A stretch of DNA of 50,132 bases, taken from the NCBI GenBank assembly GCA_024225395.1, contig JAAEMR010000053.1, forward strand, positions 1 through 50,132. Reading direction: 5' to 3'. The number at the start of each line of letters is the position of its first letter. Position 1 is the stretch's first letter. Below, in pieces: positions 21,935 to 30,059 of this stretch. The position numbers were made by a program, and so were the translations under genes. The DNA is from Gammaproteobacteria bacterium. GTDB taxonomy: Bacteria > Pseudomonadota > Gammaproteobacteria > GCA-001735895. The notes under the pieces were generated by a model, which did no database searches, was not told the origin of the DNA, and was given only the letters and a program-made list of their open reading frames with translations.

Positions 21935-22318
21935 ATGCAGTCATCAGATGGACGCCCGATCTATCTTGATCTGAAGAAAATCAGATTACCCATGCCAGGT
22001 TTCATTTCTATTATGCACCGTGGCTTTGGACTCATTCTTTGATTTTCTATTCCCATATTTACCTATTTATTTGCCCTCAGTCTGCAAAGTGAAGAAGGCT
22101 TTAATCAGGCGCTGGAATATCTGGATTACAAACTGTTTCTACCGCTTTATTTCGTATTAATCTGGGGGTTTATACATCACCTGTTTGCAGGTATTCGCTA
22201 CCTGTTAATTGATGTCGAAATAGGCGTGGATCGACAGACTTCCTATAACAGTTCATACATCGTACTGGTTGCTGCTTTGCTCGTTTCTATTGTTGTATCG
22301 CTGGGGGTGTTGTTATGA
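21935..22318 (+). pseudogene. sdhC: Succinate dehydrogenase cytochrome b556 subunit with in-frame TGA
   Basis: Translated through one stop, this 128-codon frame gives a full SdhC: RPIYLDLKKIRLPMPGFISI, MHRGFGLIL with the Ser and Arg residues that line the quinone site, then HHLFAGIRYLLIDVEIG with the haem-ligand histidine region, and three hydrophobic helices. Codon 36 (22040-22042) is TGA, directly after FGLIL at the start of helix 1. The frame ends in TGA overlapping the sdhD ATG by 4 bp, as in intact operons. Several genes here use TGA as a true stop, so code change is unlikely. The options are a sequencing or assembly error (TGG or GGA to TGA), a recent nonsense mutation, or readthrough. 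Everything else in the operon is intact, which favours error or a very recent change. Confidence 0.85.
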
Positions 22319-22644
22319 GTGGCTTTTCGGGAATGCAAGCCTGGTTAATCCAGCGCTTTACGGCTATTTATATTGCAATTGTCACGGTAATTCTGGCGAT
22401 GATCATCTGGCTTGAAAAACCGACAAATTTTCAACAATGGTCCGCTCTATTTTCTGATCCCTGGATGCAGACAGCTTTAAGCATTTTTATAGTGACTTTG
22501 TTGTTTCATGCCTGGATAGGCTTACGCGATATTATTCTTGATTATATCCATCCTATCTGGATAAAAATGTTGGTGATGACAGGAATAGTACTGATGCTGG
22601 TTGCTTCTGGTTTCTGGTTTTTACGTGCACTGCTACTGGTTTAG
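22315..22644 (+). CDS. sdhD: Succinate dehydrogenase membrane anchor subunit
   Basis: A 109-residue hydrophobic protein with three transmembrane helices that, with SdhC, anchors the complex in the inner membrane and forms the quinone and haem b site. It shows the family sequence [19 protein letters not shown] at the start, where the Arg lies near the quinone site, and [17 protein letters not shown], with the conserved His and the Asp-Tyr pair. Length is close to the usual 115. It overlaps sdhC by 4 bp, and sdhA starts 12 bp downstream. Confidence 0.92.
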
Positions 22645-22655
22645 GTTTAATACAC

Positions 22656-24419
22656 ATGAGTTTAATAAGAAGAAAATTTGATGCTTTGATTATCGGTGCT
22701 GGCGGTGGCGGTCTACGCGCTGCATTACAACTTTCAAAAGCCGATGCCAATGTTGCTGTGGTATCTAAAGTCTTTCCAACACGTTCTCATACGGTGGCTG
22801 CGCAGGGTGGTGTTAATGCGGCCATTGCTAACGTGATGCCGGATAACTGGCACTGGCATATGTTTGATACAGTGAAGGGTAGTGACTACCTCGGAGATCA
22901 GGATGCTATTGAATATATGTGCCGGGTAGCACCTGAACTGGTGTATGAACTGGAGCATTATGGCGTACCTTTTTCGCGTCTTGATAATGGCCAAATTTAT
23001 CAACGAGCCTTTGGTGGTCAAAGCCAGAATTTTGGTGAAAAGCAGGCGGCCAGAACCTGTGCTGCCGCTGATAGAACCGGGCATGCGATGTTGCATGCGT
23101 TGTACCAGCAAAATATTGCAGCAAAAACACATTTTTTCGATGAGTACTTTGCGACGGATTTAATCCAGAATGAAGACGGTGTCATTCTCGGCGCTATCAT
23201 CGTGAGCATCCAGACGGGTGAAGCGATGCTAATTGAAGCCCGTACCACGCTGTTAGCCACCGGCGGAGCAGGGCAAATCTATAAAACCAATTCCAATGCA
23301 CTGATCAATACCGGTGATGGTTTGGGCATGGTACTAAGATCAGGTATTCCGCTGCAGGATATGGAATTTATCCAGTTTCATCCGACCGGAATTGCCGGGT
23401 TGGGCATGTTAATCACCGAAGGTTGCCGTGGTGAGGGTGGCTACCTGACAAATGGAGATGGCGAACGTTTTATGGAACGTTATGCGCCTAATGCTAAAGA
23501 CCTGGCGAGCCGTGATGTGGTGAGTCGATCAATTTATCTTGAAGTTAAGGAGGGTAGAGGCTGTGGCCCGAATAAAGATCATGTCATGCTAAAACTTGAT
23601 CACCTGGGTGCGGAAACGATCATGAAACGTTTACCGGGCATTCGCCAGTCCTGCCTGACATTCCTCGGCATTGATCCTATCGAAGAGCCAATTCCTGTTT
23701 ATCCAACCTGCCATTATTTTATGGGTGGAATTCCGACTAATCGCAAAGGCGAAGTTGTTATGCCGGTTAAAGATACACCTGAAGAACCGGTTCCGGGTTT
23801 ATTTGCTGCTGGTGAATGTGCCTGTGTTTCTGTGCACGGTGCTAATCGTTTAGGGGGCAATTCATTACTCGATATTATTGTATTCGGTAGAGCCGCAGCC
23901 GATGAAATGATAAATTTCATGAAGGAAAATCCCTACCGTTTACCGATGGATGAAGATGCCGTAACAAAAGCCATGGACCGTCTGCATCGCTGGGATAAAA
24001 AGGGAGAGGGTGAGACTGTTGATGGGCTGAAAGATGACCTGAAAGCAGTGATGGAGGAATATTGTGGTGTCTATCGTACTCAGGAGTTACTTGATCAGGG
24101 TATCGAAGAAATGAAAAAAATTCGTGATCGTTTACCCAATGTTTTTATCGATGATTTTTCCAGAACATTTAATACGGCTCGCATAGAAGCACTGGAACTG
24201 GAAAATTTGGTAGATGTGGCGATGTGTACCGTCGTTGCTGCTGCATCCAGGCATGAAAGCCGGGGCGCTCACTCACGAGTTGATTACCCGACCCGGGATG
24301 ACTTGCAATGGATGAAACACAGTCTTTATTTTAAGGACGGTGATCGAATGGATTATAAACCTGTCAGAACTAAACCATTAACGGTGGATACCTTTCCCCC
24401 TAAAGAGAGGGTGTACTAG
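22656..24419 (+). CDS. sdhA: Succinate dehydrogenase flavoprotein subunit
   Basis: A 587-residue catalytic subunit that oxidises succinate to fumarate in the TCA cycle and passes electrons to SdhB. It has the FAD-binding motif [18 protein letters not shown] near residue 12, the covalent-flavin histidine in [12 protein letters not shown] (about residue 43), the active-site region [20 protein letters not shown] with the substrate-binding His and Thr, the proton-relay Arg in DVVSRSI, and [14 protein letters not shown]. The length is that of typical proteobacterial SdhA. It is the third gene of sdhCDAB, 12 bp after sdhD and 2 bp before sdhB. Confidence 0.97.
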
Positions 24420-24421
24420 CC

Positions 24422-25117
24422 ATGAAATTTAATATCTATCGTTATAATCCTGATACTGATAAAGCCCCCTACGTTCAGACTTATGAATTGAAGGATGTAA
24501 ATCCCGAAATGATGCTGCTGGAAGCGCTGTTAACTATTAAAAAAATGGATACATCTTTGGGCTTCAGAAAGTCCTGCCGTGAGGGCGTGTGTGGGTCAGA
24601 CGGAATGAATGTCGACGGTGTTAATCGGCTTGCCTGTGTGACCAGACTGTCTGAATTGAAAGACCCTGTTGAAATTCGACCTTTACCGGGCTTGCCTGTC
24701 ATTCGTGATCTCATTATAGATATGGAACAGTTCTATAAACAGTACCGAGCGGTGAAGCCTTACCTGATTGGATTAGAGCCGGAGCCGGAAGTTGAAAGAC
24801 TGCAAACTCCAAAACAACGCGAATTACTGGATGGCTTATATGAATGCATCTTATGTGGATGTTGTTCGACTTCATGCCCGTCTTTCTGGTGGAATCCCGA
24901 TAAATTCCTGGGACCGGCTGCGTTATTACAGGCATCCCGGTTTATTGAAGATAGCAGAGATGCAGCGACTGTCGAGCGGCTCGATCAACTGGACGATGCC
25001 TATAAACTCTACCGATGCCATACCATCATGAATTGTGTGCAGGTTTGCCCCAAAGATTTAAACCCGACTAAAGCGATAGGCCGGATCAAGGAACGTATGG
25101 TTCAAAAGAAGCTGTAA
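24422..25117 (+). CDS. sdhB: Succinate dehydrogenase iron-sulfur subunit
   Basis: A 231-residue electron-transfer subunit with three clusters. The [2Fe-2S] ligands are in SCREGVCGSDGMNVDG followed by LAC (residues about 55-75). The [4Fe-4S] site is CILCGCCSTSCPSFWW near 144, and the [3Fe-4S] site is CHTIMNCVQVCPKDLNPTKA near 201. All expected cysteines are present. It passes electrons from SdhA to the quinone site formed by SdhB, SdhC and SdhD. It starts 2 bp after sdhA and is followed by sdhE after 6 bp. Confidence 0.97.
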   Translation: MKFNIYRYNPDTDKAPYVQTYELKDVNPEMMLLEALLTIKKMDTSLGFRKSCREGVCGSDGMNVDGVNRLACVTRLSELKDPVEIRPLPGLPVIRDLIIDMEQFYKQYRAVKPYLIGLEPEPEVERLQTPKQRELLDGLYECILCGCCSTSCPSFWWNPDKFLGPAALLQASRFIEDSRDAATVERLDQLDDAYKLYRCHTIMNCVQVCPKDLNPTKAIGRIKERMVQKKL

Positions 25118-25123
25118 CGACAA

Positions 25124-25375
25124 ATGGATAAATACGAAACTCTGTCAGCATTAAAATGGCAATGTCGCCGTGGCATGCTGGAACTGGACGTTTTCCTGCA
25201 AAAATTTTTACAGCATGGATATAATGATCTTGATGAGCGAGAACGTGAAGATTTTTATCAAATTTTGGAATATCCTGATCAGGAATTAGTCGAGTTACTG
25301 CTCGGTCAGGTTTCAGCTACGGAACAGCATATTAATGAAATTGCCGATAAAATCCGCCAGTGTGCGGCTCTATAA
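25124..25375 (+). CDS. sdhE: Succinate dehydrogenase flavinylation factor
   Basis: An 83-residue cytoplasmic protein of the SdhE/YgfY family that helps attach FAD covalently to SdhA. The key family motif RRGMLELD is present in KWQCRRGMLELDVFLQKFL (residues about 13-31), followed by the small helical bundle ending LLGQVSATEQHINEIADKI. It lies 6 bp after sdhB and overlaps the next gene by 41 bp, the same arrangement as ygfY-ygfX in enterobacteria. The link to sdhCDAB matches its role. Confidence 0.93.
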   Translation: MDKYETLSALKWQCRRGMLELDVFLQKFLQHGYNDLDEREREDFYQILEYPDQELVELLLGQVSATEQHINEIADKIRQCAAL

Positions 25376-28877: not shown

Positions 28878-30059
28878 TTACATATATCCGTCTGTCAGTG
28901 TTTTCATGAAGTTCACCAGATCTTCATAATCGGTAATGCCATCTGAATTATCATTATCGAGCCTGAGAGTTGTTTTCAACTCTTCGGCTATATTTTCTTC
29001 TACTTCTGGCGTAAAAAATAATGATTGAGAAGGTTCTCTTATGTAATCCGCTACACTGATATCATAATGCCTGATAACTTCTTCCAGGGTTTGATAAACA
29101 CCGTTATGCATATATGGTGCTGTCAATTCGATATTGCGTAACGTGGGTGTTCTGAATTTACCTTTTGAAGTAGCAACATCAGCAGGGTCAATATTCGAGT
29201 TTGCGGCAAGACCAACGTCAATACCTGAGGATGGATTATCTGGATTAACTGGAACGCCAATGTTGAAATAATTGAAATCACTAAAAATCGTACCTGAATC
29301 AGCTGCAAACCTGGGTGGGCGGCTAATAGTATGACAATTTGCACATTTTGCACCGCTCATAAATAACTCTAAGCCACGATTTTCAGAAGCAGTCAGTATG
29401 TATTTCCCAACCCGCCATGCATCAAATTTCGAAGTAAATGGATTCATTTCATGAGATTCTTCGAAAGATGCAATTGCCGTGGCAATATTGGTATAAGCTT
29501 CATTCGTATTATCAAAGGCATTTGCACCGTAGACAGCTGTAAAGTCATTGGCATAACTGGCAGCTGAAACCTTAGTAACTACTTCCTCAGCGTTAGGATT
29601 ATTCATTTCTACCGGGTTTAAAAAAGGACCTTTGGCCTGTTCCACCAGGTCCACAGCACGACCATCTAGAAACTGTCCACCCTGGTAGTTAGATGTCGTT
29701 CCGTCAATGGTTACCGAGTTTGTCATTGAAAAATCAGGTATAAATGCGGCATAGGAAGAGGTCGGTGCATTGCGGTTTCCAAACTTTCCAGCGACAGACC
29801 CTTCTGAAACGGGAGCAGCTTGAGAAGCAACCGGATCGGCAAAACCACTGGTAGGTGAGTGACAGTCTGCGCAGGATTGATTCCCTTCACTGGATAAACT
29901 GACGTCAAAAAACAATTTCTTCCCCAGTTGCTGCTCTGCTGTCAGTGAGCTACCTGTATCAGCAGCGGGACTGTTATCACTGCTACTGCCGCAGCCGGTC
30001 ATTAAAAGAGTGGTTAAAATAATTGCCGGAACAAGAGCTGGGTTGAATCTGTTTTTCAT
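28878..30059 (-). CDS. Dihaem cytochrome c peroxidase/MauG-type lipoprotein with EF-hand-like tail
   Basis: A 393-residue exported protein. The signal ends in a lipobox (LMTGC, Cys23), so it should be lipid-anchored. Two haem c sites, CADCH (residues 63-67) and CANCH near 240, define the bacterial dihaem peroxidase/MauG family; the phrase RGLELFMSGAKCANCHT and TPTLRNIELTAPYMHNG are typical. Near the C-terminus RLDNDNSDGITDYEDLVNFM looks like an EF-hand calcium loop or a dockerin-like element, which is uncommon here. It may reduce peroxide or oxidise a protein or small substrate in the periplasm. The gene stands alone, with about 155 bp before the next gene. Confidence 0.9.
   Translation of the reverse strand: MKNRFNPALVPAIILTTLLMTGCGSSSDNSPAADTGSSLTAEQQLGKKLFFDVSLSSEGNQSCADCHSPTSGFADPVASQAAPVSEGSVAGKFGNRNAPTSSYAAFIPDFSMTNSVTIDGTTSNYQGGQFLDGRAVDLVEQAKGPFLNPVEMNNPNAEEVVTKVSAASYANDFTAVYGANAFDNTNEAYTNIATAIASFEESHEMNPFTSKFDAWRVGKYILTASENRGLELFMSGAKCANCHTISRPPRFAADSGTIFSDFNYFNIGVPVNPDNPSSGIDVGLAANSNIDPADVATSKGKFRTPTLRNIELTAPYMHNGVYQTLEEVIRHYDISVADYIREPSQSLFFTPEVEENIAEELKTTLRLDNDNSDGITDYEDLVNFMKTLTDGYM

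Follow-up and report, generated by a model that had tools for sequence, protein, structure and literature searches.

Is the in-frame TGA in the sdhC gene of this gammaproteobacterial genome a real stop codon, a codon decoded as an amino acid, or an artefact of the draft sequence? Here we present a description of the gene and its operon, together with a comparison with related genomes, a survey of stop codons in the draft and its nearest relative, and an assessment of the possible origins of the codon.

Genome and organization of the sdh operon

The window (the whole stretch of 50,132 nucleotides that was analyzed) corresponds to contig C53 of a draft genome with a total length of 4,450,920 bases, divided among 265 contigs, whose completeness is estimated at 98.85% and whose contamination is estimated at 4.72%. 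The number of contigs, the contamination estimate and the sister genome described below suggest that the draft was assembled from a metagenome.

The gene for the cytochrome b556-type membrane subunit, sdhC, occupies positions 21935-22318 of the forward strand. Its translation gives 127 residues with one internal stop, the TGA at 22040-22042, which is codon 36. Read with X at this codon, the product matches the Sdh_cyt family PF01127 with 83.7 bits (curated cut-off 25.8) and E. coli SdhC (1nek_C) with an E-value of 2e-12. Four open genes follow on the same strand: sdhD (22315-22644; TIGR02968, 95.3 bits, cut-off 41.8), sdhA (22656-24419; TIGR01816, 891.8 bits, cut-off 727.35), sdhB (24422-25117; NF004616, 360 bits, cut-off 228) and a gene for an SdhE/Sdh5-like FAD assembly factor (25124-25375; PF03937, 74 bits, cut-off 27; NF008130, 43.3 bits, below the cut-off of 120). 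Profile score and operon context are thus those of a C-type SdhC, and only the uninterrupted reading frame is missing. Scans of the DNA delivered two promoter-like sites (3.5 expected) and no terminators (1.0 expected).

The initial annotation had described codon 36 as a TGA in an otherwise intact sdhC, and the translation, the PF01127 match and the frame open from 21935 to 22318 bear this out. Its statements that the overlap of sdhC and sdhD is intact and that TGA is a normal stop in the neighborhood also hold, as the start of sdhD overlaps the normal stop of sdhC in an ATGA at 22315-22318 and TGA is the ordinary terminator of several genes in the window. Besides codon 36 the sdhC frame contains neither a frameshift nor a further stop. 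As judged from the translated product, the stop is not an artefact of a chance frame, because frame, length and protein similarity are kept before and after it, the protein being 87% identical to that of the nearest relative. A second copy of a C-type sdhC was not found in the genome, where PF01127, at E-values up to 1, has no more than two matches, both in this operon: sdhC and sdhD. A useful restart of translation after the stop is not plausible: codons 37 to 97 contain no in-frame ATG, GTG or TTG, and the first start codon, a GTG at codon 98, lies beyond the conserved HH motif.

sdhC in related genomes

The nearest relative found, genome G001 (hereafter the sister), is a metagenome assembly from the same genus. 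It is collinear with the window over positions 17-28584 at a DNA identity of 74-83%. At codon 36 the sister has TCT (Ser), as does G004, while G006 has GCT (Ala); the TGA differs from TCT in two positions. A protein search with SdhC delivered matches in 84 of 95 genomes, own genome included and the weaker ones covering only a part of the protein, and an internal stop is listed for the own genome alone. No genome of the same species was found in a contig scan with sdhD as query, which returned three loci, from the sister and two Legionellaceae MAGs, and from which records of the own genome were possibly omitted.

Within the genus, the sdhC of the sister, G004 and G006 shares 68-87% identity with the gene studied here, that of G002, G003 and G007 only 23-30%, and G005 gave no match. 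Two kinds of C-type complex II may occur in the genus, to go by these identities.

Selection on the interrupted gene

Codons 37-127 of sdhC differ from those of the sister by 40 synonymous and 17 non-synonymous differences, corresponding to a pN/pS of 0.136. Over the same codons the own genome gives values of 0.309 against G004 and 0.266 against G006; the sister, which has no stop, gives 0.261 and 0.228. By parsimony with these two outgroups, five amino acid changes after the stop fall on the own lineage and four on that of the sister, with four ambiguous sites. The rest of the operon is likewise constrained, with pN/pS values of 0.155 for sdhD, 0.027 for sdhA and 0.029 for sdhB; dS to the sister is about 1.1-1.3.

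No clear trace of the relaxed selection that would mark a pseudogene is apparent after the stop. Since the part of sdhC behind the stop is under the same constraint as in relatives that lack the stop, the stop is either very young on its branch or not real. An older pseudogene, left from a loss of the C-type complex II long ago in the species, is accordingly extremely unlikely: it would account for the stop itself and for the second complex II encoded elsewhere (see below), but it is opposed by the undiminished purifying selection on codons 37-127, sdhD, sdhA and sdhB at such a distance from the sister, and by an sdhC that has accumulated no other lesion.

Decoding of the TGA codon

The conserved frame after the TGA would also be expected if the codon stood for an amino acid, whether through a suppressor tRNA, selenocysteine insertion or programmed readthrough. 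We consider such recoding very unlikely, and it was rejected on the combined results for the incomplete set of tRNAs recovered, tRNA-Sec, RNA folding, Rfam, release factors and the gene survey. Among 138 gene ends with a C-terminal match, 24 are TGA, 80 TAA and 34 TAG, so that TGA works as a stop in this genome, which also fits a real nonsense codon in sdhC. A reassigned code would place UGA inside many genes and not at their ends; here it lies well inside only one of 144 compared frames, that of sdhC, and the relatives with an SdhC match show no internal stop at this site.

The tRNA search gave 30 matches, 29 of them over the cut-off, including one tRNA-Trp with anticodon CCA. The search for a Trp-suppressor tRNA that the initial annotation had proposed thus brought no support, as no UCA anticodon occurs among the recovered tRNAs, a set that is incomplete (150 of 264 candidates scored; tRNA-Ile and tRNA-Tyr missing). 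Tryptophan is also not the residue that the three nearest relatives encode at codon 36, which is Ser, Ser and Ala. A selenoprotein would call for a tRNA-Sec and a structure just after the UGA. The best candidate for tRNA-Sec scored 40.8 bits (cut-off 47) and is a tRNA-Ser with anticodon TGA. Folding of the RNA that begins at the TGA is not better than that of shuffled sequences (z 0.71), and no Rfam family matched it up to an E-value of 1. Three RF-1 domain proteins are encoded in the genome, one of which carries both SPF and GGQ. We take this SPF-bearing class I release factor to be RF2 by its motif, and its presence speaks against recoding.

A second complex II

A search with the [2Fe-2S] domain of SdhB/FrdB gave a second match, on contig C83. 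At G000:C83:35537-38965 (L149:8537-11965), on the minus strand, the genome encodes a complete b558-type SdhCAB, a succinate dehydrogenase/fumarate reductase, with all genes open. The cytochrome subunit of the b558 family was recognized by TIGR02046 (155.9 bits, cut-off 96), the flavoprotein subunit by NF005749 (1105.7 bits, cut-off 866) and TIGR01811, and the iron-sulphur subunit by NF005746 (398.5 bits, cut-off 243). The cytochrome subunit matches no Pfam family, but one solved chain of the b558 family, 9lay_C, is matched with an E-value of 9.7e-32. The GC content of the stretch is 42.0%, that of the window 42.9%, and this similarity speaks only mildly against contamination. No close match to the b558 operon was found in the sister, of which 577,415 of about 4.5 million bases were covered. 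Downstream of the operon lie antiporter-like and CtaA/COX15-like genes, named by eye.

As the genome encodes another complex II, a real stop in sdhC would not necessarily abolish complex II activity outright. The earlier expectation that a real stop would deprive complex II of its cytochrome b subunit therefore stands for the C-type enzyme, but not for the genome as a whole, given the b558-type SdhCAB.

This bears on the possibility that the codon is a real, very young nonsense allele, which we regard as a serious contender, though short of an even chance. The product would then comprise 35 residues and end ahead of the conserved His expected to bind haem, and SdhC would be lost. Translation of sdhD would probably be reduced because its start overlaps the end of sdhC, leaving SdhAB without an anchor. 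The cells would survive since the b558-type SdhCAB could carry the succinate:quinone traffic. However, enzymes of the b558 type are often tied to menaquinone or to fumarate reduction, and for that reason this one may not replace the C-type enzyme. It is unlikely that the stop is both real and fixed, in a lineage that is starting to replace its C-type complex II by the b558 type before sdhDAB have decayed.

Internal stops in the two draft genomes

Open frames of at least 90 amino acids, not curated genes, served as queries in a survey of the two drafts against each other, from which loci L094 and L095 were left out. The survey disregarded stops in the first 25 and last 10 alignment columns, and only split alignments were taken as signs of a frameshift. 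Before the filter for alignment ends, five of 109 frames were flagged in the own genome (four just near an alignment end) and eight of 104 in the sister (six just near an end). In the final comparison, 144 frames of the sister matched within 670,771 bases of the own genome, over 49,382 aligned residues, and the only one of them with a stop well inside is sdhC. No frameshift was detected as a split alignment in these 144 frames.

The reverse comparison, with the sister as target, covered 143 frames and 49,193 residues and gave three flags. The sister copy (G001:C78:8314-9495, L105) of a cytochrome c peroxidase-like gene, located at 28878-30059 on the minus strand of the window, contains a clear in-frame TAA, and the window copy is open. 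A dienelactone hydrolase-like match in the sister (G001:C40:24742-25092; L097:4742-5092) has an in-frame TGA, but the match is partial and may represent a paralogue. Both names were read from the sequence by eye. The third flag falls in a gapped stretch close to the start of a gene. About one to two lone stops per 140 frames in each draft are compatible with a background made up of assembly errors plus natural nonsense alleles; sdhC is not singled out by them.

Origin of the stop codon

The reading we favor over the young nonsense allele, at about an even chance, is that the TGA is an artefact of assembly or of a strain mixture. On this reading a working C-type sdhC is very probably present in the organism, and the codon would be an error of the draft that arose from a miscalled base, from low coverage or from several strains collapsed into one sequence. 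A normal SdhC would be produced, which together with SdhD would anchor SdhAB to the membrane. Several observations point in this direction. Of 84 matching genomes this is the only one with an internal stop, and constraint is kept after the stop and is strong in sdhA and sdhB, whose products need a membrane anchor. The draft consists of 265 contigs and has a contamination estimate of 4.72%, and the metagenome assembly of the sister has lone stops of its own in other genes, a clear one and a doubtful one. Internal stops in bacterial assemblies are in many cases artefacts, and checks of the raw reads are advised, according to Cooley and Wright (2024, PMC11017572), who did not assess metagenome assemblies.

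Other observations argue against an artefact. With no frameshift by split alignment and no other stop well inside a gene in 144 frames, the assembly is not generally poor. A single error would not turn TCT into TGA, two positions away, unless the other change had come first. By our rough estimate, one in 20-25 random coding substitutions creates a stop, and at that rate one artefactual stop in the residues compared would imply a fairly high error rate. In our judgement, one lone nonsense codon per 144 frames is also a believable natural rate. A young allele would further agree with an sdhC mutation that rose to a peak frequency of 0.95 in a chemostat population of E. coli (PMC4350175). Against it, neither the remainder of sdhC nor the operon shows a sign of relaxed selection.

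Comparison with known systems

A lone stop in one gene of a draft is an ordinary finding. It has little import beyond the genome itself and counsels caution against inferring the loss of a respiratory gene from a single draft. Should the stop be true and fixed, it would show the replacement of complex II in nature at its first step. No report of an sdhC nonsense codon in a comparable bacterium occurs in the titles and abstract openings of the literature matches listed.

With the spurious or recent pseudogenes of draft assemblies treated in PMC11017572, the gene shares a lone in-frame stop that lies in a conserved gene and is absent from near relatives; metagenome assemblies, to which this draft probably belongs, were not assessed there.

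The operon resembles that of the E. coli C-type succinate:ubiquinone oxidoreductase with the SdhC cytochrome b556 (1nek) in the gene order sdhC-sdhD-sdhA-sdhB and in the SdhE-like gene that follows. The sdhC itself has in common with the 1nek type its length, the Sdh_cyt domain, an HR motif before the stop and an H..(4)..GIR-type motif after it, and differs from that type by the TGA at codon 36.
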